Shown here in pieces: positions 4,537 through 35,700 of a stretch of DNA of 64,000 nucleotides. The stretch comes from a virus. The stretch covers positions 62,001 to 126,000 of the IMG/VR virus record IMGVR_UViG_3300027833_000013, one strand, 5' to 3'. The position numbers were made by a program, and so were the translations under genes. The notes beneath the pieces were generated by a model. It did no database searches, was not told the DNA's origin, and saw only the letters and a list, made by a program, of their open reading frames with translations. How positions within the stretch are numbered: position 1 is the stretch's first letter; each line of letters begins with the position of its first letter.

Positions 4537-5709
4537 TTAGCTAAAGCTAACGTTTGCAGATGTAATAGCAACATTTGCTAAGTAATCAGCGGCATTACCC
4601 AAAGATGATGCTGTGTTTGACAACTCAACATAACCATAACGAGTCATAAAGCTAACTACTGGTTCAAATGTGGACGGATCCATTACTACACCACTTGACA
4701 TCAACGGGATGTATGGGCAATAAAATGCTGGAGCATCTGATTCACTTTGACCTTTATAACCAACAAGCGCCATAGCGTTATCGGCTGCATATGTATCTAC
4801 ATATACACGCATTGCGTTATTCAAAGTACCTACAAACTTAGTGTTTGTTGGAGCTTCAAAAGTTCCTTCAGTTGTACGTGCAAAAGCACTTGTTGTAGCA
4901 GACTGTAGGATTGTTAACGCAAATGGGCTAACAACACAATAGTTACCAGCGCCTCTACGTGTACGCTGAGCGATCAAGTTAGCCGCTCTGTTGATTTGAA
5001 CTGCCAATGCGGCATGCTCGTCACCAACAAATGTTGCTGTACCTGATACAGCGGCTTGGTTGTATGTTTGTACAGCCGTGCCACTTAGCGAACGTAAAGA
5101 AGCAATAACTTCTTGGTCAATCTCAGCAGTAATCTCTTGTGCAAGAGCTGCCATGATTTCAGCTTCGACATCAATGCCGTGCTGTGCTTGTGCGTCCTGA
5201 GCTGATTCAAATGTCCAACGAGCGCTCAACTTACGAGTTTTCGCTTCAACAGTCTGTTTCAAGATCTGGATGCTTAGTTTGTTACCAGCAGTACCTTCAG
5301 ACAAGCTAGTTCCTTGTGCTTTACCAGCATCTGAACCGGCTGCATCACCAGAATAACCAACAGCAATTTTGAATGGGCTTAATGCTTCTTCGCCTGCTGT
5401 TGCATCATCTGCTGTGTCCGAATAACGTACACGTAACGTGTGGATCTGACCCACAGGTCCAGTCATTGGCTGTACGCCAACAAGTTCGTTTGCAATGACC
5501 GTAGGCATTACACGACGAATAACTGGTAGGATTACTCTGTTAAGAGTTGCGACATTACCGGCAGTAGTCGAACCAGCGGCTGATGTTTCAGACAAATACT
5601 TGCGTGTATTTTCTAAAGTTGCTGACATTACAGATTTCTTAGTTCCTGTAAGGCCTTCCATCAATGCTGTTTTCGTCTCTTGCCAGCGACTTTCTAATAG
5701 TTCCGACAT
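4537..5709 (-). CDS. 23: Major capsid protein gp23
   Basis: A 390-aa protein and the main hexameric shell subunit of the head. Recognised from the T4 gp23-like N-terminal region and conserved blocks such as RRVMPTVIANELVGVQPMTG (about 65-84), with the C-terminal block VVMDPSTFEPVVSFMTRYGY. T4 gp23 is longer (521 aa); marine T4-like versions are shorter, as here. A candidate gp21 cleavage site is L39-S40-E41 followed by T42 (consensus L/I-x-E). It lies 10 bp downstream of gp22, with GGAGATAAT as ribosome site, and is followed by a strong terminator, which fits very high late expression. The order gp20...gp21-gp22-gp23 is as in T4. Confidence 0.97.
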   Translation of the reverse strand: MSELLESRWQETKTALMEGLTGTKKSVMSATLENTRKYLSETSAAGSTTAGNVATLNRVILPVIRRVMPTVIANELVGVQPMTGPVGQIHTLRVRYSDTADDATAGEEALSPFKIAVGYSGDAAGSDAGKAQGTSLSEGTAGNKLSIQILKQTVEAKTRKLSARWTFESAQDAQAQHGIDVEAEIMAALAQEITAEIDQEVIASLRSLSGTAVQTYNQAAVSGTATFVGDEHAALAVQINRAANLIAQRTRRGAGNYCVVSPFALTILQSATTSAFARTTEGTFEAPTNTKFVGTLNNAMRVYVDTYAADNAMALVGYKGQSESDAPAFYCPYIPLMSSGVVMDPSTFEPVVSFMTRYGYVELSNTASSLGNAADYLANVAITSANVSFS

Positions 5710-5719
5710 AATTATCTCC

Positions 5720-6814
5720 TTAATTTAATCCAGCTAAACGACGGATGTCAACGACATTTTCGTTTTGCTTTTGTCTACTAACGTTAGTTTCTTCTTTGTT
5801 GCCTGTGATTGCTTTGCCTTCTGTAAGCTGTGCCTTCTTCTTTGCTGGACTATTACCTTCAATAACTGTTGGTAGATACTTGCTAAACGCCGACTTTAGT
5901 TTCGGAGTTTGAACAGATTCCAGTAAGTCTGTCATTATTTCACGTTGTGCTTTGCCTAATGGCGCAATCAAATCGTGCATAATTTCTTTACGTTGAACTG
6001 ACTCGTTAATCTGCTTAATTTCAGCTGTCTTAGCTTCTGAAAGCGTTGTAGTCTTTTCAACAATTGTTTTAGCTTCTGATAGTTGACGATTTTTAGTATC
6101 GATAACTTTCATTAACTTAGCTGTTTCACTTTTTTCGTTTAAGTAGCTATTAGCATACTCAGACGCAAACGATTCAAACAACTTACGACCGAAGTCATTC
6201 TGTCTTGCAACTTCAATATCTTCCTTCAGTGTAGCAATCTCTTTATTCAAGTTCTTGCTTACTGTTTCAGATACTAACTTTGCACTCTTTTCAATAAAGT
6301 TAGTTTTAACCTTATTAAAGTGTGTCTTAGCTTCACGTACTAAACGTACTTTCGTTTCAGCTAGGTCTTTCTTATCTTCAGAAAACTCGTTTATTTCTTT
6401 AGCCAGAGCTTCTACTACAAATTCTTCAAGTTGTCCAAACTTAGTTGACATAACTTTCTGATCTTCGTGTAGTTCAGTTACTTCTTTTCCTAGCTGTTGC
6501 ATAACAAAACCTTTCATTAGGTCTGCGTTTTCACGCATCGCTACTGCATATTTTGCTTTTGCTTCTGCTAGTTGTTTGCGGTCTTCTGCAAACTCAGAAA
6601 TCTCTGCATTAAGACGCTCGGAAAGCATAGAATCAATGGATTCAACCATTTGACCCTTGTCATGCTCATACTTTTTAGCAAACTCTTCACGAAGTTCCGC
6701 AGTTACCTGCATCTTATTCGATTTAATTTTGCTATCCCAAGCTTCTTCTATTTGCGCTCTGATATCTTCAGAAACAACATCGTTTTCAAAGAGTGTTTTC
6801 AGTGCATCTATCAT
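5720..6814 (-). CDS. 22: Prohead scaffolding core protein gp22
   Basis: A 364-aa, highly charged, mostly helical protein with long heptad-like K/E/A/L stretches (LREEFAKKYEHDKGQMVESI near residue 41; ENADLMKGFVMQQLGKEVTE near residue 95). This is typical of the T4 scaffold, which forms the prohead core and is degraded by gp21. The C-terminus ends ENVVDIRRLAGLN. It is longer than T4 gp22 (269 aa), with repeated 'LxKEI.E..EDKK.LAE' blocks in the middle. It lies between gp21 and gp23. A late-type box (6851-6858) sits in the end of gp21, and AGGAGAAAAT precedes the ATG. Identification rests on composition and synteny. Confidence 0.9.
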   Translation of the reverse strand: MIDALKTLFENDVVSEDIRAQIEEAWDSKIKSNKMQVTAELREEFAKKYEHDKGQMVESIDSMLSERLNAEISEFAEDRKQLAEAKAKYAVAMRENADLMKGFVMQQLGKEVTELHEDQKVMSTKFGQLEEFVVEALAKEINEFSEDKKDLAETKVRLVREAKTHFNKVKTNFIEKSAKLVSETVSKNLNKEIATLKEDIEVARQNDFGRKLFESFASEYANSYLNEKSETAKLMKVIDTKNRQLSEAKTIVEKTTTLSEAKTAEIKQINESVQRKEIMHDLIAPLGKAQREIMTDLLESVQTPKLKSAFSKYLPTVIEGNSPAKKKAQLTEGKAITGNKEETNVSRQKQNENVVDIRRLAGLN

Positions 6815-6830
6815 ACTATTTTCTCCTAGT

Positions 6831-7448
6831 TCACTGGAGTTTGCTAATAATATTTATTAGCGATTCCTTAAGATACTTTTGTGCCTTTACATCGTGCTTT
6901 GTTGCCTGTGCTAATTCATATGCCTTCATTCCCCCACGTGCATTCATTAAATGTTCATAAATTGCTGTAGGATACGCACCAGGGGCACTAGGCTGAGCCA
7001 CAATGTCCACAGTGATTATTTCGAAATCGGTTACATCACCGCTTCCGTTAACTTCACCAGAGCCCCTACTGGAAACGCCAAGTTTAACGCCGTTTTCCAA
7101 CATTGTTTTAACTAGCAATCCCATAGGAGTTGGTAATATCTTCATTTTACCATAACCATTTGCATCTTCCATCCACATTTCTGTAATCATGTGAGATACA
7201 CGGTCAAGGTTAATATTAAGGCCTTCCGGATGATCTACTTCCCCAAGAACACTATATCCTCCAGTAACTTGATCGTTAAGAGTTTTGACAGCCCTACCAA
7301 TTTCATTAACGGGATACACACGCTGGTTAGCATTGCGCACACCGCCTTGAATGCAAATACCTTTCATATATAGGTCTTTGCCTTCATTAGCAGATTCTAC
7401 GACGATTTTCGCCTGGTCGAATGTCAAATGTTCTTGAATTAAGTTCAT
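6831..7448 (-). CDS. 21: Prohead protease gp21
   Basis: A 205-aa serine protease of the T4 prohead-protease (herpes-assemblin-like) fold. It processes capsid and core proteins after (L/I)-x-E. Expected catalytic segments are visible: LGEVDHPEG with H73 and VKLGVSSRGSGEV with S126/S127. The early VYPVNEIGRAV block (about 44-54) and IVAQPSAPGAYPTAI near the end match the family. The length matches T4 gp21 (212 aa). It lies between the acidic prohead-core candidate and gp22, with AAGGAAAGC upstream. Confidence 0.95.
   Translation of the reverse strand: MNLIQEHLTFDQAKIVVESANEGKDLYMKGICIQGGVRNANQRVYPVNEIGRAVKTLNDQVTGGYSVLGEVDHPEGLNINLDRVSHMITEMWMEDANGYGKMKILPTPMGLLVKTMLENGVKLGVSSRGSGEVNGSGDVTDFEIITVDIVAQPSAPGAYPTAIYEHLMNARGGMKAYELAQATKHDVKAQKYLKESLINIISKLQ
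6851..6858 (-). promoter_or_regulatory. Late-type promoter box AATAAATA before gp22
   Basis: Minus-strand AATAAATA lies inside the 3' end of gp21, about 37 bp before the gp22 start. It would add late transcription of scaffold and capsid. Confidence 0.45.
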
Positions 7449-7458
7449 CTAGCTTTCC

Positions 7459-8400
7459 TTACTTGCCAATGATCGATTTTTTATCACTAGCTGTTTCGCC
7501 TGCGCCTTTTTTCTCAGCGCCGTGGCCTTTTGACATAGCTTTCATTGCTTTCCCTGCTTTTCCGCCTGGAACGTTTATGTTGCCCATGTTATCTTCTTTA
7601 GCACTTGGGTCAGCTAAGCCGCCTTTTGTACCTTCTGAATTGCTTTCGCCGCCAGCTACTATATTTGCTGATGTGCCATCGCCCATTTTGTTTGCACTTG
7701 CTGTTGGGGATTTAGTGTTTGCACCGTTGTCGCCCATTGTAGCATTTACTTTTTCAACATATTCACGCATTGTTTCAGTTTCTGATTTGTCAGCTTCTTC
7801 GACTTCTTCATCAGTTGCTTCTTCTACGTCAAGATCAAAACTCTCTTCTTCAGGAGCTTCTTCTTCGTCACTGTCGGCTTCGCCTTCAGCATCGTCTGTA
7901 TCGCCTTTTTCGTCATCATCGGAAGCCATATCGGTTCCCATTTCTGCATCAAAAGCCGCTTTTAACTTTTCAATTTCGTCTTGCAAGTCTGCAATGTCGT
8001 CTGCTACGTCACCTTCTGGTGCGTCATCAGCATCATCATCCATGTCCATTGGAGCATCATCGCCTGCTGGCATTTCAAGATCGCCCATCATGTCGTCTAC
8101 TGGATCTGCTTCAACTTCAAACTCGTCTAGGTCAAACCCTTCTTCAAGCTCTTCATCAGACTCATCAACTTCTTCATCTTCGTCTAAATCTTCGTCAGTT
8201 GCTTCGTCAACTTCTTCATCTGTAGTTTCATCAACTTCTTCATCAGTTGCTTCGTCAACTTCTAGATCATCTTCTAAAAGATTCTCATAAATATCTCTGG
8301 ATTTTTCTACTACTATTTCGTGAAATAGTGCTTCCGCTCCAGCGCGGTCTTCGTTAACTAATTTTTCGAGCATTTCCTCGAATTTATTACGGTCTGTCAT
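7459..8400 (-). CDS. Acidic prohead-core candidate (gp67/gp68 position)
   Basis: A 313-aa very acidic protein lying between gp20 and gp21, where T4 has the core genes 67 and 68. Residues 1-45 form a conserved-looking helical head (FEEMLEKLVNEDRAGAEALF, then IVVEKSRDIYENLL). A long Asp/Glu-rich region with tandem VDEATDEE octads follows, then a Gly/Ser/Lys C-terminus. Function as a prohead core (scaffold) component is inferred from position, acidity and the gp68-like N-terminus. A sigma70-type promoter (8421-8449) precedes it, and AGGAGAAG is the ribosome site. The long plus-strand frame opposite it is a shadow of its biased codons. Confidence 0.75.
   Translation of the reverse strand: MTDRNKFEEMLEKLVNEDRAGAEALFHEIVVEKSRDIYENLLEDDLEVDEATDEEVDETTDEEVDEATDEDLDEDEEVDESDEELEEGFDLDEFEVEADPVDDMMGDLEMPAGDDAPMDMDDDADDAPEGDVADDIADLQDEIEKLKAAFDAEMGTDMASDDDEKGDTDDAEGEADSDEEEAPEEESFDLDVEEATDEEVEEADKSETETMREYVEKVNATMGDNGANTKSPTASANKMGDGTSANIVAGGESNSEGTKGGLADPSAKEDNMGNINVPGGKAGKAMKAMSKGHGAEKKGAGETASDKKSIIGK
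8187..8258 (-). repeat. Three 24-bp tandem repeats coding for acidic octads
   Basis: Copies at 8187-8210, 8211-8234 and 8235-8258 have the unit CTTCTTCATCAGTTGCTTCG plus TCAA (plus strand). They encode VDEATDEE/VDETTDEE-type octads in the prohead-core candidate. The first and third copies are nearly identical; the middle one has diverged at a few positions. Confidence 0.85.
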
Positions 8401-8420
8401 TTTTTCTTCTCCTAAAATGA

Positions 8421-8449
8421 AATATATTTACCTACGGGTAGGCTGTCAA
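8421..8449 (-). promoter_or_regulatory. Sigma70-type promoter with palindromic spacer
   Basis: Minus-strand TTGACA (8449-8444), a 17-bp spacer and TATATT (8426-8421) lie 21 bp before the ATG of the acidic core protein. The spacer holds a perfect inverted repeat, CCTAC-GG-GTAGG (8431-8442), a possible operator. Confidence 0.6.
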
Positions 8450-8500
8450 TTGTATTTACTCATAGTATGAAATATAGGTGTATAATAGGCTCAAAATGAG

Positions 8501-9109
8501 TCATTTTATAATATAGTTTCCTACATTAAATGAGTTAGTAAATTCTTTTACTGTTATATGGGTTAAATTTGCAAAATTGCCAAACGGTTCAGGTATAAAT
8601 GAGTCCTTATCTTCTATTACTCTTATATATCTCTTTTCGGGAGATTTCTGCATTACACTACATGTTTGACGTAACCAGTTGCCGAAATACGTTGCAGTAT
8701 CTTCACTTCTTTTGTAATTTGCAGTACTCGAGTATATGTTATTGACCCTCTTGCCTTCAGGTCCGATGCCTTTATAGTCAAACCCTAAAATATAAATTGT
8801 ATCGTGTGCATGCGAAGCCGCAAGATGTAATGCAGTTGGTCCGCTACTCCAACCTAACCCTGGATTAAAATAGTTAAACCCTCTATAAGATTCAAATGAT
8901 TTATTAAAGTTCGTCCATACCTGGCCTTCATGTTGATAACGATTTTGATTAATTTCATTAATCATTTTAATATCAACAGCTATAAGATAGTCCGGTTTGA
9001 ATTCCCTGTATACTGCATTACAAGCATACATTGTTCCGTATTTTTTTAAGGGTTCTAAAGGTATAGAGGATCGGCTAGTGCCGTTGCCCAATACAAACGC
9101 TACGCTCAA
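8501..9109 (-). CDS. Rossmann-type protein resembling DUF115/GT42 sialyltransferase-like families
   Basis: A 202-aa protein starting MSVAFVLGNGTSRSSI, with MYACNAVYREFKPDYLIAVD (about 27-46) and SSGPTALHLAASHAHDTIYI then LGFDY (about 88-112). The pattern 'GNG.S.....L.....yacN....kpdy..avD ... SG..al..A......IyilGfDy' is the layout of CstI/CstII-type (GT42) sialyltransferases and related DUF115/MptE-like proteins. These use a nucleotide-activated donor or bind nucleotides. No equivalent sits here in T4: it interrupts the head operon between the gp20-82aa pair and the core candidate. The stop of the upstream 82-aa gene is 4 bp away. Family assignment is tentative and substrate unknown; glycan modification of the virion or host surface is one possibility. 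Confidence 0.55.
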   Translation of the reverse strand: MSVAFVLGNGTSRSSIPLEPLKKYGTMYACNAVYREFKPDYLIAVDIKMINEINQNRYQHEGQVWTNFNKSFESYRGFNYFNPGLGWSSGPTALHLAASHAHDTIYILGFDYKGIGPEGKRVNNIYSSTANYKRSEDTATYFGNWLRQTCSVMQKSPEKRYIRVIEDKDSFIPEPFGNFANLTHITVKEFTNSFNVGNYIIK

Positions 9110-9112
9110 TTA

Positions 9113-9361
9113 TTATACTCCGCCGGCCTCTGCGTTAGCCGATAGTCCATACATTTGTCTAACAAATAACAATTCTTTCTCTTGTTCTTCAGTATGTAGT
9201 TCTGCGGCTTTCCTTACGCGATTAATCTGACGTAGTGTAAGTCTAGTTTTGCGTGTATCATCAAGATCTACGGGAGAGTCGTCAAGGTCAGCTTCGTAAC
9301 GCTTGTCGTCGACTGGATCAACAGTTTCTTTGTCAAAGTAAAATAGTTCACGTAGTATCAT
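9113..9361 (-). CDS. Small charged protein downstream of portal (possible gp67-like core protein)
   Basis: An 82-aa protein: an acidic N-terminal half (DDKRYEADLDDSPVDLDDTR, about 18-37) then a basic helix (TRLTLRQINRVRKAAELHTE, about 39-58). It sits directly after gp20, the position of T4 gene 67 (80 aa, prohead core). No clear sequence match to gp67 can be claimed by eye. No convincing Shine-Dalgarno site precedes the ATG, and a TATAAATA box (9367-9374) ends only 5 bp before it, which would give a leaderless or very short-leader transcript if used. Confidence 0.6.
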   Translation of the reverse strand: MILRELFYFDKETVDPVDDKRYEADLDDSPVDLDDTRKTRLTLRQINRVRKAAELHTEEQEKELLFVRQMYGLSANAEAGGV

Positions 9362-9366
9362 ATAGT

Positions 9367-9374
9367 TATTTATA
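9367..9374 (-). promoter_or_regulatory. Late-type box TATAAATA at gp20 stop
   Basis: A perfect T4 late octamer on the minus strand overlaps the gp20 stop codon. It is so close to the next ATG (9361) that transcription would start at or near the start codon. It may be functional or a chance result of the stop context. Confidence 0.4.
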
Positions 9375-11106
9375 CAGTTGCGCCAGTATCTGCGCCTGCA
9401 TCTCCTGTTGCTGTGTCTGCTGTGTCAATGTCCAGGCCGCCGTCTACTGGCGCTTCATCTGCTGGTGCTTCATCTTCCATACTGCCCATGTCGCCGGCTA
9501 TTCCAGCACCACTAATACCAGCAGTTCTCATTTCGCCTTCTGCGTCAGCAGGTAATGTTTGTAAGTTTTCGTCATTTTCTTCTTTCCACAAACGTTCATT
9601 CTCAGCTACTTCTTCAGCACTTAATCCTAAGAAACGTTGTAATGCAAAACGATTAGAAATATAAGGTATAGCACTCATCTGTGTATATGTAGGTACACGA
9701 GCATTATCAATTTCACTTTGTCTATAGCTTGCAAAGTTTTGTGGTGGTTGAAAACGTAAATCAAACATTGCAGTATCAACATTAATACCTTTTTCAAGTA
9801 TATAACGTTTAAACTCTTGATTTAATTGCTCAACAACTAAGTTTTGTAGTCGTTCGCAATATGTGTTAAAGCGAAGTTCTTGAATATATGCTGTACCTAC
9901 TCTGCCGTCATTGTATTGTGCCGCGCTGTCATCAGCCCCTGTAGGTAGATAGCTGGAAGGAATTCGTAAGCCGCGTACGAGCTTATTAGTAAAATATCTA
10001 AGGTCATCAATTTCTCCAAGGTTAGTACCGCCTGGCAATGTTTCAACTTTTGATCCACGTCCTTCAGCAGTTTGCGGGAAGAAGTAATCTTCGTTCATTG
10101 ATAAAGGATTATAACTACTGTCTATAACATTAGTTCCTCCGCCTGTAGCACTTGGGATTCTGCGTTGGTGAATCTCAGTTTTTACACGCTCGACAAACTG
10201 CATCGCTAAGTGCGATGGCATGTTGCCAACATCAACATAGAACACCCTGCGTTCTGGAGCACGTTGTACTCTGTAGATGATAATAGCATCCTCTAGTAAT
10301 TCTTTTTGCTTGTATACTTTAAACACAGTTTCTAATAAGCTGTTACCAAATGGGTAGTTATTGTCTAATCCTTCTGATAAACTTAAATGTATAACATTAT
10401 CTGAGTCTACTGATAGTTCGCCGTCTTCAGTGCTGAATCTTGATCCAGATGCAGTAGGTGTATTACCTGCCATCCCTCTAACGCTTCCAGTACTGCCTAC
10501 AGCACCGCCGCCGCCATTAATTGTTCCGCTTGTTACATGCGGAGTAGTTGCAACCATATCTTTAAAGTTTAGATTAAAGTTTTTAATAACGTATTGTTCA
10601 GGAGTTTTACCGCTACTTTCGTTTACAATAATTCTACTAACGTTTGCACTATCTACATGAAACAATTTTTTAGTTTCTGGATCTCTTACAAAAAATTGAT
10701 CACCGTACTTAAACACGTTGCGTAATATTCTAAACATACGTGTTTCAAATTTGTTTAATTTGCACCATTGCTGTAAGTATTGTTGAATAATAGTTGTTTC
10801 TGAATTTGTAGATTTCTTTTTGAAGTCAATAGTAAATGGCGTTCTATTTTGTGTGTTTTGCTGTGAGCAAAACTCTGCTAATATGTCAAGGGCCGCATTA
10901 ACTTCTGAATCCATATCCATAGTATTATACTGTCCGTAACGTTCAACTCTATTAGGACTGCCTACATATACATCTGGCAAGTAGGAACTATACTTCGTTG
11001 TGGCAGGTCCGGGAGTAGAACCGTTGCGGCCTCCACCCAACGGCGAATAACTTCCGCCCATGTTGTCGCCTGTTTGTACAGGAGTAAAGTATTTTTTCCA
11101 ACTCAT
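9370..11106 (-). CDS. 20: Portal vertex protein gp20
   Basis: A 578-aa dodecameric portal through which DNA is packaged and the tail is joined. T4 gp20-like features include YGQYNTMDMDSEVNAALDIL (about 57-76), LYRVQRAPER-type text (IIYRVQRAPERRVFYVDVGN, about 275-294) and LRIPSSYLPTGADDSAAQYN (about 384-403). Length is close to T4 gp20 (524 aa). The extra length includes a Gly/Ser-rich insert (NGGGGAVGSTGSVRGMAG, near residue 200) and an Asp/Ala-rich C-terminal tail. It is first of the head genes on this strand after the tape-measure gene, with AAGGAAAATAACACG upstream of the ATG. Confidence 0.95.
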   Translation of the reverse strand: MSWKKYFTPVQTGDNMGGSYSPLGGGRNGSTPGPATTKYSSYLPDVYVGSPNRVERYGQYNTMDMDSEVNAALDILAEFCSQQNTQNRTPFTIDFKKKSTNSETTIIQQYLQQWCKLNKFETRMFRILRNVFKYGDQFFVRDPETKKLFHVDSANVSRIIVNESSGKTPEQYVIKNFNLNFKDMVATTPHVTSGTINGGGGAVGSTGSVRGMAGNTPTASGSRFSTEDGELSVDSDNVIHLSLSEGLDNNYPFGNSLLETVFKVYKQKELLEDAIIIYRVQRAPERRVFYVDVGNMPSHLAMQFVERVKTEIHQRRIPSATGGGTNVIDSSYNPLSMNEDYFFPQTAEGRGSKVETLPGGTNLGEIDDLRYFTNKLVRGLRIPSSYLPTGADDSAAQYNDGRVGTAYIQELRFNTYCERLQNLVVEQLNQEFKRYILEKGINVDTAMFDLRFQPPQNFASYRQSEIDNARVPTYTQMSAIPYISNRFALQRFLGLSAEEVAENERLWKEENDENLQTLPADAEGEMRTAGISGAGIAGDMGSMEDEAPADEAPVDGGLDIDTADTATGDAGADTGATV

Positions 11107-11123: not shown

Positions 11124-13622
11124 TTAGAAGCTACCTGAAGCTTCTCTAAAGCCTGTTCTATTGATAGTATTAGTTAATCTTGTAACTTCTATTAGTGTAT
11201 CTAGCTTAGTATTTAGTAGGGTTAGCTGATCTGAGCTACCTGTTCCGGCAGTGCCAGCAGTGCCGCTAGGCATTGTTGTATTACCTGCGTTATTGCCATT
11301 AGTGAACGGTAACCAACTGTTATCCTTAGTTAGCTCGTCGTTTATTTTTTCAAAAGAGTTACCAAGGCGTTCCATTTGATCGGCATATAATCTTAAACTA
11401 CTAACGTCTAAATCGTCACCAAATTTTGACAACGCTTCTAATGCAGTTCCGCTTAATTTTACATTCTCAATAGCTGTTGCATCAATGTTTTTAAACTTAT
11501 TAAGTCCTTCGACAATTTTATCAAAAGGTGAGTCAGCGCCAAAGAAACTAGTAATACTTTCTAGTACTCCGCCAGCAGTTAGTGATATTAGTGCAGGTCC
11601 TAGTAATCCTAATGATGTAGCAATTTCTGCAAAGTTTGTGGCTCCCTTCATGTTAGCCATTTTTTCAACACCTGCGGCAATCTTTTCAACGCCGTCTCCG
11701 GCTAAGTTAATGCCGTTTCCTGCAAGTGTTATTGCGGCGCCAGTACCAATAAGCATAGCTGTAAATACTGCGGCACCAATTGCTACTGGTCCGTTTGCAA
11801 ACATTCTAAACACTGAAGTAAGTGCTCTAAATCCTAGCGTAATAAGCCCACCGGCTGCAAGCAATCCGCCCAATGATGTTAATCCAGCTAAAAGAGCTGG
11901 GCCTGCAAGCATGCCTAAGAATTCACTTAACGCACCGCCTTCACGTTCGCCTGTTGCTTGTTGATCATGATCCGGTCCTTCCATTGCTCTTTTACCAAAT
12001 ATAACATCTTTAGCTAAGTTCATCAGTCCTGACATAGCTGTTGATATATGTGGAGATATTAGCTCACCAAGTTTACTTAATCCTGTTGATAGGTAGCCTC
12101 CTATAGTTTCCATTAAGTTACCTTCTTTAAAAGATTTAAGTAAATCACTCATCACAGTTGATATTCCTTCAACTACTGCATTTAGTCCGCCAGGACCATC
12201 ATCAGTAACAACACCATTAAATGCTGTTGTTAACGAACTCATCGCTGCCTGTACTGTATCAAAGACACCTGATGTAATTAATGCATCAGTAATACTATTT
12301 CTTAACTTAGTTACAGTGTTACTAAACAATAATGACTGTCTTGACCTTTCAGCTTCTTTATCAGCTTCTAGTGCTTTTGCCGCAATTTCTGCTTCTGTTA
12401 GTGCTACAACTGTGTTGCCTAACCCTAATAGTCTTGATTGTGTTTGGGCAAATACATCGCCATCAGCGGCCATTGCCGCAAGTACTAACTTTTCCGCATC
12501 AGTCTTGTTAATCATTACCTGCCTAGCTTTTTCCATTTCTATCGCCATTTGTTCCGCGGCTCCAGGAACTCCATCATGCAGGGCTTTGGCTGCGGCTGCG
12601 ATACCTGGGTTTAGATTTAGTAGGGCATTACCTGCTTCAGTATAAGGTATACCACCAGTAGCAATCATTTCTGTAACTGCTTCGCCAAGTTCCGCATCTC
12701 TTGATGTTAACATTGCTACTGTACTTTTAATTGCTAGTTGGGCTTGGGAACTCATTGTAGACATCACTAAAGCAAGCCTATCATCTCGAGCGGCGGCGTC
12801 CATCTGATCTTGTACTTCTTGTCTTGACTTGCCTGTAATTTTTGCAAGTTTGTCAATTTCTTTAATGTACGCCTGGGCAGATGCCGCGCCTGCCGCAGAT
12901 GTTAGCCCTTGAGTTCGTCCTAATCGTTGCTGTTGCCTCATGTAGCCAGCTGTAAATTCACCAACTTCTTCCATTTGCATACCCATAAGCAAAAATTGAT
13001 TAGCACTTTGAGATACTTGACTTTGCAATGCTACAAACATTTTAGCACCGTTACCAGCAGTGCCTCCTAGTTTTGCAAGGCCTTCACTATTGTTAGATAA
13101 GACAGTTTGGAAAGATTCAAAACTCATTCCGGTTTTTGTGGCTTGAAGTTTTGCTTCAAACAGAGAACCACCTAGGTCGATACCTACATTAGATAACTCT
13201 CTAAACGCATCAATTTGATTATCTAATACACTTACTAATAATTGGCCTACTCCGCCTATTACACCGCCAAATATAGGAATTGCACTTAGTGCGCCTGTTA
13301 TATGTTGTGTAAAGTCACTAAGTTTATCACCACCAAGCAATGCTTCACTTGCTAGGCCTTTTACCGCACCTGTAATCTGTGAAAAGCCTCTAGATAGTGC
13401 ATTGCCAGAACTATTTGCCGCTTCTTCTAATTCTTCTAATTCTTTAGTAGTTTTACCTGACTGTTTGGCTAATTCGTGTAAGTTGCCCGCGGCTTTGTTA
13501 TTGCCGCCTGAGGCACCTTTCCCTTCCATTACTTTTAATAATCGAACTAGTGTTGCTTCGGAGGCAGCGTTATTTAATTCTACTTCTTCTTGCCCAATCG
13601 TACCTGTTACTTTTTCAGCCAT
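11124..13622 (-). CDS. Tape-measure-like tail protein
   Basis: An 832-aa protein, predominantly helical and Ala/Gly-rich. Hydrophobic stretches occur near the N-terminal third (ITGALSAIPIFGGVIGGVGQ) and near residues 560-640 (MLAGPALLAGLTSLGGLLAA, IGAAVFTAMLIGTGAAITLA). That is typical of tape measures, which set tail length and insert in the host membrane during ejection. I place the start at the ATG at 13622 (MAEKVTG), with AGGAAACC upstream; the open frame extends to 13733, but that N-terminal extension is poor and overlaps the divergent promoter region. A late TATAAATA box (13682-13689) fits this start. The T4 counterpart would be gp29, but similarity is only in general character. At about 1.5 A per residue it would suit a tail of roughly 120 nm. 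Confidence 0.7.
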   Translation of the reverse strand: MAEKVTGTIGQEEVELNNAASEATLVRLLKVMEGKGASGGNNKAAGNLHELAKQSGKTTKELEELEEAANSSGNALSRGFSQITGAVKGLASEALLGGDKLSDFTQHITGALSAIPIFGGVIGGVGQLLVSVLDNQIDAFRELSNVGIDLGGSLFEAKLQATKTGMSFESFQTVLSNNSEGLAKLGGTAGNGAKMFVALQSQVSQSANQFLLMGMQMEEVGEFTAGYMRQQQRLGRTQGLTSAAGAASAQAYIKEIDKLAKITGKSRQEVQDQMDAAARDDRLALVMSTMSSQAQLAIKSTVAMLTSRDAELGEAVTEMIATGGIPYTEAGNALLNLNPGIAAAAKALHDGVPGAAEQMAIEMEKARQVMINKTDAEKLVLAAMAADGDVFAQTQSRLLGLGNTVVALTEAEIAAKALEADKEAERSRQSLLFSNTVTKLRNSITDALITSGVFDTVQAAMSSLTTAFNGVVTDDGPGGLNAVVEGISTVMSDLLKSFKEGNLMETIGGYLSTGLSKLGELISPHISTAMSGLMNLAKDVIFGKRAMEGPDHDQQATGEREGGALSEFLGMLAGPALLAGLTSLGGLLAAGGLITLGFRALTSVFRMFANGPVAIGAAVFTAMLIGTGAAITLAGNGINLAGDGVEKIAAGVEKMANMKGATNFAEIATSLGLLGPALISLTAGGVLESITSFFGADSPFDKIVEGLNKFKNIDATAIENVKLSGTALEALSKFGDDLDVSSLRLYADQMERLGNSFEKINDELTKDNSWLPFTNGNNAGNTTMPSGTAGTAGTGSSDQLTLLNTKLDTLIEVTRLTNTINRTGFREASGSF

Positions 13623-13700: not shown

Positions 13701-14591
13701 ATGACAGAATTTAACGATTCGGGTATGACCCAAATGACAGCGCCGGGTGCTAACCCTTTAAAGAAATATTTTAGACAACCAAAGTTATATATTACGTTGC
13801 CTAGCAAAGGAAAATGGTATCCTAGCGGTACAATAGAAATGTTAGAAAATGGTGACTTAGCGGTCTTTGCTATGACCGCTAAAGACGAACTAACTTTAAA
13901 AACTCCTGATGCATTACTTAACGGCCAAGCAACTGTTGAGATAATACAAAGTTGTGTGCCCGGTATTAAAAATGCTTGGGCTGTTCCAAGCATTGACATT
14001 GATGCTTTGCTAATCGCTATACGTATTGCTACATATGGCGAAAATATGGATATCACAGTAACTCCGCCAGGATCTGAAGAAGAGAAATCATTTGCACTGA
14101 ATCTCAGAGAACTATTAGACACTATGGGACAATTTGATTTTGAGGAAGACGTTCCGTCGTTAGGAGAATTCCAAGTTAAGATTAGACCAGTAACTTATAA
14201 AGAGTTTACATCGGCATCATTAACTACATTTGAAGAAGAAAGAATGTTTAGAATTGTTAATGATGGTGAGATGGAGCAAGAAGAAAAGCTATCTCAATTC
14301 GGAAAAACGTTTAATAAAATTAGAGATCTAACTGTTGGTATGATTACAGATAGCATTGTATCAATTGCAGTTGACGATATGATTGTAACTGATAGGATGC
14401 ATATTACTGATTTCATTAGTAATGCAGACAAAGCGGTGTTTGATACCATTACTACACACATCGATAATGAAAAAAAGAAACATGCTATTAAGCCATTAAA
14501 AGTACAGTCAGAGCCTGAGGACATTGCAAATGGTGCTCCAGAAACTTACACAGTTCCAATTGCATTTGATCAATCAAATTTTTTCGCCTAA
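13701..14591 (+). CDS. 26: Baseplate hub subunit gp26
   Basis: A 296-aa protein of the T4 baseplate gp26 family. It carries the family's LPSKGKWYPSG segment near residue 33 and a charged helical C-terminal region. Typical blocks are AVFAMTAKDELTLKTPDALL (about 54-73) and IIQSCVPGIKNAWAVPSIDI (about 80-99). Longer than T4 gp26 (208 aa). ACGGAGAATGAA precedes the ATG, and a perfect late box lies upstream. The gene's last codons form a slippery run (A-AAT-TTT, 14576-14582) directly before the TAA at 14589, and the -1 frame stays open for 77 more codons. The 0-frame product may therefore be only one of two products. Confidence 0.88.
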   Translation: MTEFNDSGMTQMTAPGANPLKKYFRQPKLYITLPSKGKWYPSGTIEMLENGDLAVFAMTAKDELTLKTPDALLNGQATVEIIQSCVPGIKNAWAVPSIDIDALLIAIRIATYGENMDITVTPPGSEEEKSFALNLRELLDTMGQFDFEEDVPSLGEFQVKIRPVTYKEFTSASLTTFEEERMFRIVNDGEMEQEEKLSQFGKTFNKIRDLTVGMITDSIVSIAVDDMIVTDRMHITDFISNADKAVFDTITTHIDNEKKKHAIKPLKVQSEPEDIANGAPETYTVPIAFDQSNFFA

Positions 14592-14621: not shown

Positions 14622-14815
14622 TAGAAGAAATTAGAGATTTAGAAGGCCAAGCAAAAGAGTTTCGTCATACAATATTAAAGATAATGTGGTATATGCGAGG
14701 TAGTATTTCAATGGACGAAGCGTTTATGCTTTCAACTGAAGATCGAGAAATTATTAACGACATAATTAAATCTAATTATGAAGATACTAAGAAGTCTGGA
14801 ATGCCTCTAATTTAA
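14582..14815 (+). CDS. -1 frame extension of gp26 (frameshift product; gp51-like candidate)
   Basis: In the -1 frame of gp26, codons from 14582 to the TAA at 14813 encode a helical, charged segment: VDWPVDRILEEIRDLEGQAK, then KIMWYMRGSISMDEAFMLST. There is no ATG, GTG or TTG before an internal ATG at 14684, although the 38 codons before it look coding. The frame opens after a TGA at 14567, just before the slippery run. Slippage at A-AAT-TTT would give a 371-aa gp26 fusion. Small proteins following gp26 in marine T4-like phages have been annotated as gp51-like hub-assembly proteins; this segment resembles that type, but the match is from memory. Internal initiation at 14684 (43 aa) is the main alternative. 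Confidence 0.65.
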   Translation, partial: FRLRIVDWPVDRILEEIRDLEGQAKEFRHTILKIMWYMRGSISMDEAFMLSTEDREIINDIIKSNYEDTKKSGMPLI

Positions 14816-15426
14816 CTAGTTGCTGGTCCAACTGTTGGTGCTTTAGTACCCGATAACTGTGCTTTAATCTGATCTGCAATGCCAGATTTTTTAATTTCAT
14901 CTGCAATGCCGCCTATCATCTTAGTAGTTAGTGCGGCGCCAACAGCCCTAGGTGCCATTTTAGCAGTAGAATTATTTACCCATTGAGCACCTGCCCAAAC
15001 ATAAGTTTCACCGTCGTCGCCAGTTTCTAATTGCCCAGCACCTTTAGCTACTTTAATTTTTGGATTGGGCTTAGTGTTATTTTGTGTTTGGCCGTATTTA
15101 CTAAGTTTTTCATCTTTGTTTAGGTCTTTAAAGTTTTCACTACCTTCTGCACGTTTGATAAGTTTTTCAAGTTGTTGCACCATTACTGGATCGGACATTA
15201 TAGCTTCTAATCCCTTTGCAAAGGGTGCAATTTGTTTTGCTAAGTTAGCAGGTAATGCTTCGCCTTTAGAAACTTTATCCATTGCCTTACTCATTGTGCC
15301 TCCAGACCCTTTACCGCCTAACTTTTGTGCCATGCGTTTAGCACCTTGTGCAACTTTTTTTAGTTTGTCGTTAGGTGCTTCATTAAGAGTTTGTAATTCT
15401 AAATTAGTAATATCATTGACGTTCAT
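14812..15426 (-). CDS. Probable internal head protein A with cleavable capsid-targeting leader
   Basis: A 204-aa, lysine-rich protein. Its N-terminus MNVNDITNLELQTLNEAPND carries L14-N15-E16 followed by A17, an exact gp21 (L/I)-x-E cleavage context. T4 internal proteins have short leaders of this kind (MKTYQEFIAE then A). The remainder is basic and helical early (KLKKVAQGAKRMAQKLGGKG) with an Ala/Gly-rich second half. The neighbouring 193-aa gene has the same MNVxDI start and E-A-P junction. Its ATG overlaps that gene's stop (TAATG), so they are coupled. It ends convergently on the gp26 extension with a 4-bp overlap. Packaging and injection with DNA is inferred from the leader only; the function in the cell is unknown. 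Confidence 0.65.
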   Translation of the reverse strand: MNVNDITNLELQTLNEAPNDKLKKVAQGAKRMAQKLGGKGSGGTMSKAMDKVSKGEALPANLAKQIAPFAKGLEAIMSDPVMVQQLEKLIKRAEGSENFKDLNKDEKLSKYGQTQNNTKPNPKIKVAKGAGQLETGDDGETYVWAGAQWVNNSTAKMAPRAVGAALTTKMIGGIADEIKKSGIADQIKAQLSGTKAPTVGPATS

Positions 15427-16007
15427 TATAACATCCCCGCTAGTGCTTTTTTATGCGCAACAGATAAGTTATTAATTTTATTTTGAAGCTCTGCAGGAAT
15501 TTTGGCAGGCTTTCCTGTTGCATTTGCTTTTGTTCCCGGACCGTTATTAGTAGTTCCGGGCTTTGTGCCTTTACCAACAGTCGACTTCATTCCTGTTTTA
15601 GCTTGCGCTTTGTTTAGTATTCCTGCTTTAGGATCTGCTTGAGTAGGTGCCGCTGCCGCATTGCCGCCAGTAAGTTTATTACGTGCCGCTTGCTTTAATA
15701 CGTCCATTACAGTTTTCTTATCTATAATTCCTTTAGGTAGCTGAACTCCGCCAGCAGATAAATTATTTTGTTTCATAAACGCGGCAAAATCAGTATCGGA
15801 CATATTTTTATCATTCTTGCCATTAATACCTTGCCATGTTTTTAATGTCTTGTATAATGCGTTTGCTTCTTTACCCATTTGGGCACTTCCTGCCATACGT
15901 TCAGCACCAGGCAATTTACCAACAGCGCCTTTAACTGCATTACCAATGCCACTAGTAGGAGCTTCGCTAATTTTTTTATCTTCATTTAAAATATCATAAA
16001 CGTTCAT
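15426..16007 (-). CDS. Probable internal head protein B with cleavable capsid-targeting leader
   Basis: A 193-aa basic protein beginning MNVYDILNEDKKISEAPTSG. Two (L/I)-x-E sites are visible: L7-N8-E9 and I13-S14-E15 followed by A16. The leader resembles T4's MKTYQEFIAE targeting sequence in length, aromatic position and acidic end. The body is Gly/Ala/Lys-rich (NAVKGAVGKLPGAERMAGSA), with a Gly/Thr/Asn/Lys linker (KGTKPGTTNNGPGTKANATG) and a helical C-terminus ending HKKALAGML. High lysine suits DNA binding inside the capsid. A late-type ACTAAATA box (16037-16044) lies 30 bp upstream and TAAGGACTACTC is the ribosome site. The paired arrangement with the 204-aa gene suggests a shared role. 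Confidence 0.65.
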   Translation of the reverse strand: MNVYDILNEDKKISEAPTSGIGNAVKGAVGKLPGAERMAGSAQMGKEANALYKTLKTWQGINGKNDKNMSDTDFAAFMKQNNLSAGGVQLPKGIIDKKTVMDVLKQAARNKLTGGNAAAAPTQADPKAGILNKAQAKTGMKSTVGKGTKPGTTNNGPGTKANATGKPAKIPAELQNKINNLSVAHKKALAGML

Positions 16008-16036
16008 GAGTAGTCCTTAATAATATACTATAAGTG

Positions 16037-16044
16037 TATTTAGT
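16037..16044 (-). promoter_or_regulatory. Late-type box ACTAAATA before internal-protein pair
   Basis: The minus-strand box lies 30 bp before the ATG at 16007. The CTAAATA variant is the same as the one before gp48 (20954-20961), supporting a shared recogniser. Confidence 0.5.
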
Positions 16045-16327
16045 AGTTAGTGTATTAACTTCGTTAATACAAGTTATCGCTAACGCTCAAACTACTTACA
16101 CTTCGTTTTGATTAAATAATTTATAAATGAATTATAATTGCATTATTACGAATGTAATAATGTTTAAGTTTCATGTAGATTGTTTTAGTCAGACGGAACC
16201 TGTTTAAGGGTTCCATCTAATCTTGAGCTTCATGTGAGTCCGTCACAGCCGAGACATTGGAAGTAGGTAATTGTTTATACACAAAGTACAATGGGCTCTG
16301 ACCTTTCCCAACCTACGTCGACATTAT

Positions 16328-16566: not shown

Positions 16567-17001
16567 TTATGTGTTGGAATGTTTTGCCTGTAAATGTTCT
16601 TTAAGAATTTTTGATCCGCCAACTCTAACATTTATGATACCGTTGTAGTATTCATCTGTTTCAAGTACTCTGCGTTCAAACTGCTCTCGTGCCTCTAAGT
16701 AACTTGCTATGCCTCTGCTAGGACAAATATGAATAATTTCTCTTATGAAATGTTCTTCGCCTAACTCTAAAACGTCTGCATTAAGTCTATCACTGGAACC
16801 GTAATAAGTTTGCCAGTCACTTTCTTTAGTACTACGTCTTTTGTTTTTCTTGCCTTTGAGTGGTTTCTTTGTTACTTTGAATTTTGCTAGTTTTTTGCCT
16901 ACGTATTTCATGCCATTGACTTTGTTTGTTATCAAGTAAACAAATGCTTCACAACCTTCTGGTAGTTCGTCTATTGTTTCGCCTTGATAAGTCCATTGCA
17001 T
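16567..17001 (-). CDS. GIY-YIG-like endonuclease
   Basis: A 144-aa protein. FVYLITNKVNGMKYVGKKLA (about residues 20-39) fits a degenerate GIY...YIG pair (VYL ... YVG), and other family landmarks follow in order: WQTYYGSS, R in FIREIIHI, E in ASYLEAREQF and N in YYNGIINVR. GIY-YIG nucleases cut DNA as homing or repair enzymes (T4 Seg proteins, I-TevI). This compact form lacks an obvious DNA-binding domain, apart from a basic insert, KKPLKGKKNKRRSTK. It lies in the gp47-gp46 early operon, 14 bp after the small gene, so a role in DNA processing is at least as likely as homing. The 559-bp non-coding region follows its stop. Confidence 0.7.
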   Translation of the reverse strand: MQWTYQGETIDELPEGCEAFVYLITNKVNGMKYVGKKLAKFKVTKKPLKGKKNKRRSTKESDWQTYYGSSDRLNADVLELGEEHFIREIIHICPSRGIASYLEAREQFERRVLETDEYYNGIINVRVGGSKILKEHLQAKHSNT

Positions 17002-32200: not shown

Positions 32201-32736
32201 GTTACGGCGCTGAGTTAGATAAGATTAAAAGTATTAGTGACGAAGTAATATACCATCCAGTAAAGTACAAAATACTTTTTGGATCAGCCGCGGAGAATAG
32301 TTTGCAAGCAACGTTTAAAATTGTTAAAAATACAGAAACTGTATCCAACGATAATGAAGTAAAGTCAAATGTAATTAATGCAATGAATGAATATTTTAGT
32401 TTGGAAAACTGGGAGTTTGGTGAATCATTTTACTTCTCAGAACTCTCAACTTACATAATGAATCAACTTGCACCTTCAATTAGTTCTATAGTAATTGTTC
32501 CAAGCGACGACTTACTATCATTTGGATCGTTGTATGAAATAAACTCAGAATCTGATGAAATTTTCATAAGTGGTGCAACTGTAGAAAATGTAGAAATAAT
32601 AGATACTATTACTGCAACTAAACTAAAATCCTCAGGCACTGTTATTACAGCAAGCACTGAAGTTTCAAATACTGGAATACAAAGTTCGAGTACTGCATAT
32701 ACGTCCACTATCAACACCGGAGGCTCGAGCTACTAA
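29260..32736 (+). CDS. 6: Baseplate wedge subunit gp6
   Basis: A 1,158-aa protein. The N-terminus carries the wedge signature: MIAYLRTNYPEDFNDYIESS and LIDLIAFLGQNISFRIDLNA, then ENFLELAERRESVLRLARLL (about 83-102), as in gp6/J-like proteins. Downstream are SDRISLVFSDGTFGELPQGV (about 342-361) and SSTSETNESIKQNAPSTYYT (about 407-426), also typical. In T4 gp6 (660 aa) dimerises to form the inner ring of the baseplate. This form is nearly twice as long; the extra sequence is mainly a beta-rich insertion between about residues 530 and 900. The stop overlaps the next start (TAATG), coupling it to the giant gene. Confidence 0.93.
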   Translation: MSTTDRQNRLLVAENWKRIYQSFRNADFQSYDFDNLRRTMIAYLRTNYPEDFNDYIESSEYLALIDLIAFLGQNISFRIDLNARENFLELAERRESVLRLARLLSYNPKRNQAAQGLLKVTSVSTTEEVVDSNNFNLANQQIQWNDPTNTDWYEQFIKVMNSALPANGTFGRPLKKEIVDGVPNEQYRFNAVNTDIPTYGFTKTVQGKSLQFEVVSTDLNTDTKNAEEEIPLTANSFAYLYKDDSRGPASSNTGFFCTFKQGSLDSGQFVVNTPTTNQVIDIDAANINNDDVWLYKLDASGQESEYWTKVDAVEGNNIIYNSVSKKIRSVYSVLTRVSDRISLVFSDGTFGELPQGVFKVFYRTSNNQSYVIKPTDMTGIQIKVPYLSRSNTVETITLNLELKYTVANSSTSETNESIKQNAPSTYYTQNRMVTAEDYNVAPLGISQDIIKVKSVNRFASGISRYYDLLDATGKYSSTNLYANDGIIYKENLVNKDSFTYITQTDIESAITNKIEPILKDRRVLNYYLTNFTKVITSDLKAEWVQTTSDTNRGTGHLIDESDVKYKVGTFTANNLRLLEAGSLLKFEAPTGYHFLVGDKTTLIAGAVGAPNTLMYKWVKVISVNGDGTTNTTSGLGPIVLNDSIPTQALLTEIRPKLTTSINDSVKVQIIDQAFANNTFGLRYDVGTRQWRLITEVNLDTISDFSTGKTGDVSSQNLDASWLLWFKTDGEKYNITYRAMRYVYESDNEIKFYYDSSDKIYDNKTGKIIKDKIQVLSINTQPMLTLPFTSDYNFEITKEYRDADGYVDSKKVEISFFDADDDGVVDNPGSFVDIVNETVSPTTKYIFQKKYTTTDGVEDYQYVTQTSQNILVLTSESAIGAYSSYDALTIFFAIDTGLFKQLSSDKLLLTQISNFKAFIGRADLKFRYVHAADNNKRIDPSSTNLIDTYLLTRLYDTSYRKWLNGDLTTKPLPPSSDQLYRSYGAELDKIKSISDEVIYHPVKYKILFGSAAENSLQATFKIVKNTETVSNDNEVKSNVINAMNEYFSLENWEFGESFYFSELSTYIMNQLAPSISSIVIVPSDDLLSFGSLYEINSESDEIFISGATVENVEIIDTITATKLKSSGTVITASTEVSNTGIQSSSTAYTSTINTGGSSY

Positions 32737-35700
32737 TGGCTTATAATGATGACCAAAACGAATATCCACTTCCAGTTAATGGCAAATCTAATAGAAAGTC
32801 TGCGGAGTTACTTCCGAGATACTTCCGTACTGAGACAAATACTAAGTTTTTAAACGCAACATTAGATCAGGTTACTACGCCTGGCACTGCAAAAAAACTT
32901 AATGGGTATTATGGCAGAAAAACTGCAAATGCATATTCTCCTAAAGATATCTATTTAGGAGATGTTACAGCTCAACGAGAAACTTATCAGTTAGAACCGT
33001 CGTTAATATCTAAAGACTTACTCGGCAATGTATTATTTTATAAAGATTATAATGATTTTAGAAATCAACTTAGTGTATTAGGCGGTAGTGTATCAAATGA
33101 AAGTTTATTAAACAGCCAAGAGTACTATGCATGGAACCCTAATTTAGATTGGGATAAACTTGCTAACTTTAGAGAATATTACTGGTTACCAAATGGTCCT
33201 GCAAACGTAACAGTCTTTGGCCAAAATGATGATGTAACTAGTACGTACACAGTTTCAAGTGTAGATAATTTAGGCAATAGAGGATACACATTTAACGGTA
33301 ATTTAACACAAAATCCAACATTAGAATTATATAGAGGTCAAACTTACATATTTGATATAGATGCCGCTGGGTTGCCACTTACTTTCAGAACATCGAGAGC
33401 TATCGAAAGCGATAACGAGTATGCAATCGGCATAACTAATTCAGGAACTGATACTGGATCGATTACGTTTACTGTGCCACTTGAAGCACCAGACAGATTA
33501 TACTATGTTGCCCAAACAGATATTAATACTGGTGGAACAATTAGAATTGCAGATATAGAATCAAACACTTCTATAGATGTTGCAACTGATATTTTAAATA
33601 AAAAAACATACACTACTGCAAATGGATTTGCATTAATGAATGGTATGAAAATTAAGTTTGAAGGAACTGTTACTCCTGAAATATATGCAACCAATACCTG
33701 GTATGTTGAAGGTGTCGGTGACAAGATTAAATTAATTAAAGATACTGATCTTACTATTCCGCAAGCATATTCCGCAGACATCAATGTATTGTTTGATGCT
33801 AATCCTTTTGATAATTTACCTTATAGTAGAGCAAACTCTTATAGTGCAACAAAAGATTATATTGTTATTAATCGTAGTTCACCTGATAAAAGTGCTTGGG
33901 CAAGAAACAACAGATGGTTCCACAAATCAGTGCTTGAAAAAACAGCTGAACTAAATGGTGAAGTATTTAACATTGATCAAAGTGCAAGAGCAAAGCGTCC
34001 TATTATTGAATTCAATGCAGGACTAAAATTATTTGAATTTGGTACAGAAGCCAAAACAGAAAATGTAGATTTAATTGATACTTTTACTACTGATGTATTT
34101 TCTACAATCAACGGCAAAGAAGGTTATAGCATTGACGGCGTTGATATTACTGACGGTATGCGCATATTGTTTACAGCGGATACCGACCTGCTTGTAAAAG
34201 ATAAGATATACAAAGTTAAATTTATTAAACATAATTCAACAGTAGCGCAAATAGCGTTAATAGAAGAATCGGATACTCTTCCTATTGCTAATCAAGTTGC
34301 ACTAATAATTGCTGGTACTAATGCCGGTAAACAATATTATTATAACGGCTATGCTTGGAAATTAGCACAATATAAGTCTACTGCAAATCAACCCCCGTTA
34401 TTTGAGATATTTGATGATTTAGGATATAGTTATACTGATTCATCAACGTATCCAGTAAGTGATTTTATAGGTAATAAACTGTTTAGTTATAAAGTAGGAA
34501 CTGGAAAGGCTGATATCGAATTAGGTTTTCCTATTACATATAAGTCACTTGAAAATGTAGGCGATATAACGTTTGATTTTAATTTAGTAACAGATTCATT
34601 TAATTATCAAATTAATAATACTCCGTTATCTAAAAACACAGACGTTGGATTCTGTAAAGTATATACTGACATTACTAGTTTTGAATATTGCAATGGATGG
34701 GCAACGACAAAAACTAACACAGTTCAAAAAGTTATTAGGCAATATGATGTTGCTACTGCACAGGCAGATTTTGCAATCGATGTTTATGACAAAAGCGGTA
34801 CACTAACTGACTTAACAGTTGCCGTACAAGTAAACAGTGCTTGGAGATTTGACTATACGCTTGTAACTGTAGACAATGTAAAAACTGTTAGATTTGCAAT
34901 AGCAATACCTGCAAACAGTAGTGTTGTAATTAAAACTAATAGCAACACTATTAAAAATGCTAACGGCTATTATGAATTTCCGCATGCAATGGAAAAGAAT
35001 CCACAGAATGAAAATCTTAGTTCCTTTACACTCGGCGAAGTAAACGATCATGTATTTTCAATGCTTGAAGACTTGCCGGGATTTGCAGGAACATTTCCTG
35101 GACCGAGCAACCTTGGCAATTTAGGAAACATAAATCCGTATGGTAAAAAGTTTCTACAGTATGCCGGATCTGCCAACATATCTGCTTATCACATTACAGA
35201 CAAAGATGCAAACATAATCAAAGCAATTGATCATGCAAGGCGCGAATATAGAAAGTTTAAAAGATCATTTATGCAAGTAGCAGAAACTCTTGGATATGAT
35301 GGCCCGACTAAACAACACGTTGATTTAGTATTAAAAGAAGTTAATAAAGATAAAACAAAAACAGACTCGTATCACTTTAGTGACATGGTACCATATGAAG
35401 GTGCAAAGCGTTTAGAATTCACAGTTTATGATACAGAAAATACTTTCTTTTCACTAAGTGAAAAATTTAGTTTAGATACGTTATCATCTAAAGCATTATT
35501 GGTATATCAAAATGGTACACAGTTAATTCATAATAAAGATTACACATTCAATTTAGATGGATTTGTTGTAATTACTGCAACTAAAGCAAAAGACGATTTA
35601 ATAGAAATATATGAATTTGGCAACACAGACGGCTGCTACGTACCTTCGACTCCTAGTAAGTTGGGATTATTTCCAACGTTTTATCCTACATTAATTTCTG

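Follow-up and report, generated by a model that had tools for sequence, protein, structure and literature searches.

A coupled gene pair with predicted T4-type capsid-targeting leaders in a variable late gene slot of an uncultured marine phage

The gene pair and its surroundings

The window, a 64,000-base stretch of the 169,459-base record (G000) of an uncultured marine T4-like phage, carries two adjacent minus-strand genes, ORF2 and ORF1 (Table 1). Both proved genuine at the coordinates first assigned to them, and their TAATG coupling, an overlap of one base, was confirmed. ORF2 begins MNVYDILNEDKKISE-AP and ORF1 MNVNDITNLELQTLNE-AP, with the predicted sites ISE15-AP and LNE16-AP, so that the proposed (L/I)xE followed by Ala near the N-terminus is present in both. 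The two leaders are acidic, 15–16 residues long, and end in (L/I)xE before Ala-Pro; the initial annotation had likened them to the leader of the T4 internal proteins, MKTYQEFIAE-A. Across the genome, (L/I)xE-A occurs at 0.0006 per residue, or in about 0.9% of proteins within 15 positions, and 3 of 153 ORFs carry it at residues 5–22. Because the site stands on two adjacent genes and is kept in their relatives, it is more than chance.

Table 1. Positions of the gene pair, its flanking elements and the head genes in the window
Feature	Position	Strand	Remark
gp23-like major capsid protein	4537..5709	-	candidate cut LSE41-T
gp22-like scaffold	5720..6814	-	8 (L/I)xE(A/G/S) sites
gp21-type prohead protease (Peptidase_S77)	6831..7448	-	PF03420, E 1e-22
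gp20 portal	9370-11106
gp26-type baseplate gene	13701..14591	+	borders locus on other side
ORF1, 204 aa	14812..15426	-	short form of 640-780-aa leader-bearing partner protein
ORF1 C-terminal YxWxGAQW domain	14851..15069	-	common to large partner proteins
ORF1 leader MNVNDITNLELQTLNE	15379..15426	-	predicted cut after E16
ORF2, 193 aa	15426..16007	-	family present in RaK2-like jumbo phages (phrog_16152, misnamed Hsp70)
ORF2 leader MNVYDILNEDKKISE	15963..16007	-	cut predicted after E15, with E9 as second candidate
Late-type promoter box CTAAATAC	16036..16043	-	36 nt before ORF2 start
Hairpin 2, 9-bp perfect stem TGTATTAAC/GTTAATACA	16051..16071	-	stems covary across relatives
Hairpin 1 GTTTGAGCGTTAGCGATAAC, near-invariant loop GAGCGNNAGCGA	16073..16092	-	conserved element
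SegE-like GIY-YIG endonuclease gene (PF19835, E 9e-33)	16567..17001	-	borders locus in most relatives

Two further features ascribed to the pair stood only in part. Both proteins do start with MNVxDI, but this is not a conserved unit, as close ORF1 relatives begin MQVTQI; the wider family has the N-terminus M(K/N/R)(I/V)xx(I/V), and a search of the 169-kb record for MNVxDI found it on these two genes only. The Lys/Ala/Gly-rich bodies, which had been taken to suit packaging with DNA, are indeed basic in the mature proteins (pI 10.3 and 9.8), but the jumbo-phage homologues of ORF2 are mostly neutral or acidic; basicity is therefore lineage-specific and weak evidence for DNA packing. AlphaFold gave low-confidence models of the two ORFs (mean pLDDT 56 and 49). 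Foldseek found no match to them at E <= 0.001 and VIA-align returned unrelated EF-hand and carrier-protein folds (Z <= 5.5), results that were taken as uninformative.

A late-type box upstream of the pair was also confirmed. ORF2 does not have the strict T4 late box TATAAATA but the variant CTAAATAC; boxes of this class, (A/C/G)TAAATAC, show enrichment upstream of the genes of the window (9/23, P 7e-8), and those relatives that were checked keep the box at -35 to -45.

T4-like head genes encoding gp23, a gp22-like scaffold, the gp21 protease and the gp20 portal lie in the same window. The number of sites in the scaffold compares with 1.2 expected and was reached in 0 of 5000 shuffles, and the candidate cut of gp23 is N-terminal to the conserved shell domain. 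Beside the portal gene, an 832-aa protein (11124-13622, minus strand) has hydrophobic stretches and a weak match to phrog_14121, a virion structural protein; its size in relatives ranges from 831 to about 1190 aa. Elsewhere, in the tail or baseplate region, a single open reading frame of 4933 aa occupies positions 32736-47537 of the plus strand.

Conservation in marine relatives

Megablast of the window DNA against the phage collection gave no relatives, and direct tblastn found none for ORF2 and only weak motif matches for ORF1. As direct searches performed poorly, relatives were approached through closer metagenomic sequences. With a portal probe from a marine relative, the nearest cultured matches were jumbo phages of the RaK2-like, Atu_ph07-like and PA5oct-like kinds.

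Close relatives retain the coupled pair with both sites intact, at identities of 69-72% for ORF2 and about 53% for ORF1. More distant ones retain ORF2 next to a partner of 640-780 aa or of 144 aa. The site xE-(A/K/V)P is present in all 45 non-redundant marine ORF2 relatives, with E and P invariant, while the leader differs in sequence and length; at locus L026 a far longer leader ends in the same kind of site, IDE-AP. Position P3 is more relaxed (L 14, V 13, I 10, T 5, A 3), being L, I or V in 37/45, with strict L or I in only 24/45.

The large ORF1 partner likewise starts MKLxEVT...LxE-(G/S) in 43/43 non-redundant sequences, its site being L(T/N/K/Q)E-(G/S). Around residue 160 these proteins have a hydrophobic segment rich in Gly and Ala, and mid-protein another LxE-A site; viral contigs contain over 100 relatives (L042:5630-7633, L031:162-2327, L060-L139), and no Pfam or PHROG family matches them. 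The ORF1 leader resembles theirs, and in one branch ORF1 has its C-terminal YxWxGAQW domain in common with the large proteins (57% identity).

A two-hairpin element and a variable slot

Upstream of ORF2 and its late box lies a conserved element of two hairpins, of which hairpin 1, a 20-mer, is kept even where protein identity is only 35%. In relatives, hairpin 2 has a stem of 8-9 bp and follows 5-6 nt past hairpin 1. At least 7 perfect pairs were found in 35 of 36 sequences, with 14 different stems, against 0.5 sequences expected; these were counted by a custom script on sequences obtained partly via ORF2 relatives, and simple mononucleotide shuffling served as the control. The element occurs once in the window and at most once per locus checked (L025, L026, L063-L138, L140-L219). 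An Rfam search of it returned no credible match, and it is possible that it acts as a structured RNA, a terminator or an exchange site.

Scanning viral contigs with hairpin 1 alone gave at least 120 stretches, 80 of which were kept. Among these 80, hairpin 2 is present in 78 and a SegE-like gene precedes in 57. Among the matches listed, a leader of the form M(K/N/R)(I/L/V/F)...(L/I/V)xE opens 46 of the 63 following genes, against 1 of 262 other genes at the same loci. The following genes form 16 sequence clusters among those matches, and the leader is found in 8/16 as against 1/34 control clusters (P 2e-4), on a clustering by BLAST at 1e-5 that may keep some mutual distant relatives apart. Several further clusters look leader-like and miss the strict pattern. 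Since no protein sequence was used in sampling by the element, this result is independent of the leader claim. The frequency of leaders and the number of clusters among the matches listed therefore place the pair in a slot that is expressed late and varies in the leader-tagged proteins it contains, and the bordering SegE-like gene hints at endonuclease-linked exchange.

A family shared with jumbo phages

ORF2 matches phrog_16152 (PHROG E 5e-5, profile-profile E 2e-17, BLAST E 8e-8), with homology across the conserved helical region that joins it to the RaK2-like gp558/ORF048 family. Members include RaK2 ORF048, 121Q gp558, GAP32_205, CBB_211 and protein 387 of Vibrio phage 2.275.O. A site of the form (L/I/M)xE marks the leader boundary in 18 of 18 aligned marine and jumbo homologues; P1' in the jumbo proteins is mostly R or D, and their downstream partner is without an N-terminal leader. 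PHROG labels ORF2 as 'Hsp70 heat shock protein' and ORF1 as 'DNA primase'; neither name was adopted, since they have no Pfam support and rest on low-complexity matches.

The family is syntenic among RaK2-like jumbo phages and adjoins virion proteins, between gp4-like and ATPase genes and near tail-tube genes. Compared with that block (RaK2 ORF047-ORF051, 121Q gp557-gp561, CBB_210-214), the marine phage has a homologue of ORF048/gp558/CBB_211/GAP32_205 in ORF2, a neighbour with Y/W-G-x-W domains after it, and gp4-like and ORF047-like genes elsewhere in the record. It differs in that the pair lies beside gp46/SegE-like and gp26 genes, and in that the jumbo homologues mostly lack its basic character. 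Positions 7292-9460 of G000 carry the gp4-like and gp557-like genes, and ORF2 is found at 77426-78007, within a pair spanning 76.8-78.0 kb. The pair thus occupies a different place, relocated some 68 kb from the post-gp4 position next to gp557- and gp559-like genes that the jumbo family holds. The case for homology between ORF1 and gp559 is no more than suggestive: the pairwise profile comparison of the Y/W-G-x-W domain gave E 0.017, recurring at the same motif, and a Vibrio phage protein gave E 3e-4. For the gene at 6105-7295 of G000, homology to RaK2 ORF050 or 121Q gp560 was sought and none was found.

Direct evidence for ORF2 homologues in virions is mixed. The records of 121Q, CBB, BF and XaC1 label them structural proteins. 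By mass, the phAPEC6 virion list holds gp270c, gp268c and gp267c, equivalent to 121Q gp557, gp559 and gp560, and misses the gp558 position, which would be gp269c (PMC7247149); the published CBB list holds 210, 213 and 214 and misses CBB_211 and CBB_212. Small or low-copy proteins may escape such lists. Literature on the virion status of the GAP32 and RaK2 homologues offered no usable protein list.

Probable gp21-processed head-interior proteins

We consider it probable that ORF2 and ORF1 are head-interior proteins processed by gp21. Expressed late, each would be drawn into the prohead core by an N-terminal leader of 15–16 residues, of the T4 capsid-targeting type, and the gp21-type protease would then cut after (L/I)xE and release the mature protein beside the DNA. 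The pair would probably be packed with the DNA and possibly ejected with it, ejection into the host being the weaker of these suggestions. Their slot is bounded by the SegE-like gene and the two-hairpin element on one side and by convergent gp26-type baseplate genes on the other, and in related marine phages differing leader-tagged proteins stand there. The leaders, the protease, late expression and the variable slot fit head-packed cargo, and a structural role in the head interior would agree with the conservation of ORF2 in jumbo phages. Both roles are compatible, since T4 IPIII helps assembly and is also carried in the head (PMC9026906).

The pair would be a variant of the T4 internal-protein strategy. 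In T4, the propeptide of an internal protein has 10-19 residues, directs it to the core and is cut off by gp21 (PMC9026906); both ORFs carry predicted propeptides within this range ending in (L/I)xE, conserved in relatives, and the phage encodes a gp21-family S77 protease. As with IPI, IPII and IPIII, the mature proteins are small and basic, a property not conserved in the jumbo homologues, and the complement varies among relatives. Unlike the T4 proteins, the marine genes form a coupled pair in a defined slot, their leaders have 15-16 residues against 10, and ORF2 is conserved across distant phage groups. Pfam and PHROG gave no match of either protein to a T4 internal-protein family; the T4 proteins diverge quickly. 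The ejection proteins of phiKZ and SPN3US also have N-terminal propeptides, an xxE cut and a related prohead protease, and are packaged with DNA, as the marine pair may be. Propeptides of phiKZ-like phages, however, often exceed 100 residues and carry the motif (S/A)xE, unlike the marine pair in both length and motif (PMC5694885).

The pair might instead consist of conserved parts of head assembly or of an inner body (core), cleaved by gp21 as scaffold-like proteins are and playing no role in the host after injection, a reading we regard as possible though doubtful. The synteny of the ORF2 family beside virion proteins in RaK2-like phages, the inner body or internal rod of 121Q and phAPEC6 (PMC5646251, PMC7247149), and the mass match of the downstream homologue gp559 to a virion protein would all suit it. 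An obligate core part, on the other hand, would hardly be replaced by differing proteins in marine relatives or range from 144 to about 780 aa as ORF1 does, and neither the phAPEC6 nor the CBB virion list includes the ORF2 homologue. It is unlikely that the (L/I)xE sites arose by coincidence or have a folding role, in ordinary tail, neck or non-virion proteins: the motif is short and the jumbo homologues lie near tail-tube genes, but retention in 45/45 and 43/43 sequences and the excess of leaders at element-sampled loci, among the matches listed, argue against it.

A role as injected effectors countering host defence, like T4 IPI, was proposed in the initial annotation and now appears very unlikely. 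The proteins are leader-tagged, small and basic, and their locus is variable, as such effectors might be. They match no defence or counter-defence model in PADLOC, Pfam or NCBIfam, however, and the family of ORF2 is of structural type and broadly conserved, being kept across jumbo phages of several host genera, rather than of a fast-changing anti-restriction type; T4 internal proteins are poorly conserved (PMC9026906).

Going beyond head-interior proteins processed by gp21, we tentatively suggest that marine T4-like phages might set aside a slot for exchangeable cargo proteins that are packaged in the head. The covarying two-hairpin element beside the SegE-like homing endonuclease would mark this slot, perhaps steering the exchange or expression of the cargo, and whatever protein came to stand there would gain a gp21-cleavable leader for packing and host delivery.

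The analysis ties to prohead processing a family misnamed 'Hsp70' in jumbo-phage records, and exact mature N-termini can be predicted for many uncultured marine phages. Together, the hairpin element and the leader give a sequence handle by which candidate head-delivered proteins can be catalogued without cultivation. The phrog_16152 label 'Hsp70 heat shock protein', for which support was not found here, has spread into RefSeq and recent records (RaK2, PBECO4, GAP32, CBB, Kaldavass). The homologue of 121Q gp557 in G000 (L011:7292-7855, minus strand) carries a T4-like leader, MRSFTEVLLE-S, and is a further candidate for a gp21-processed head protein.
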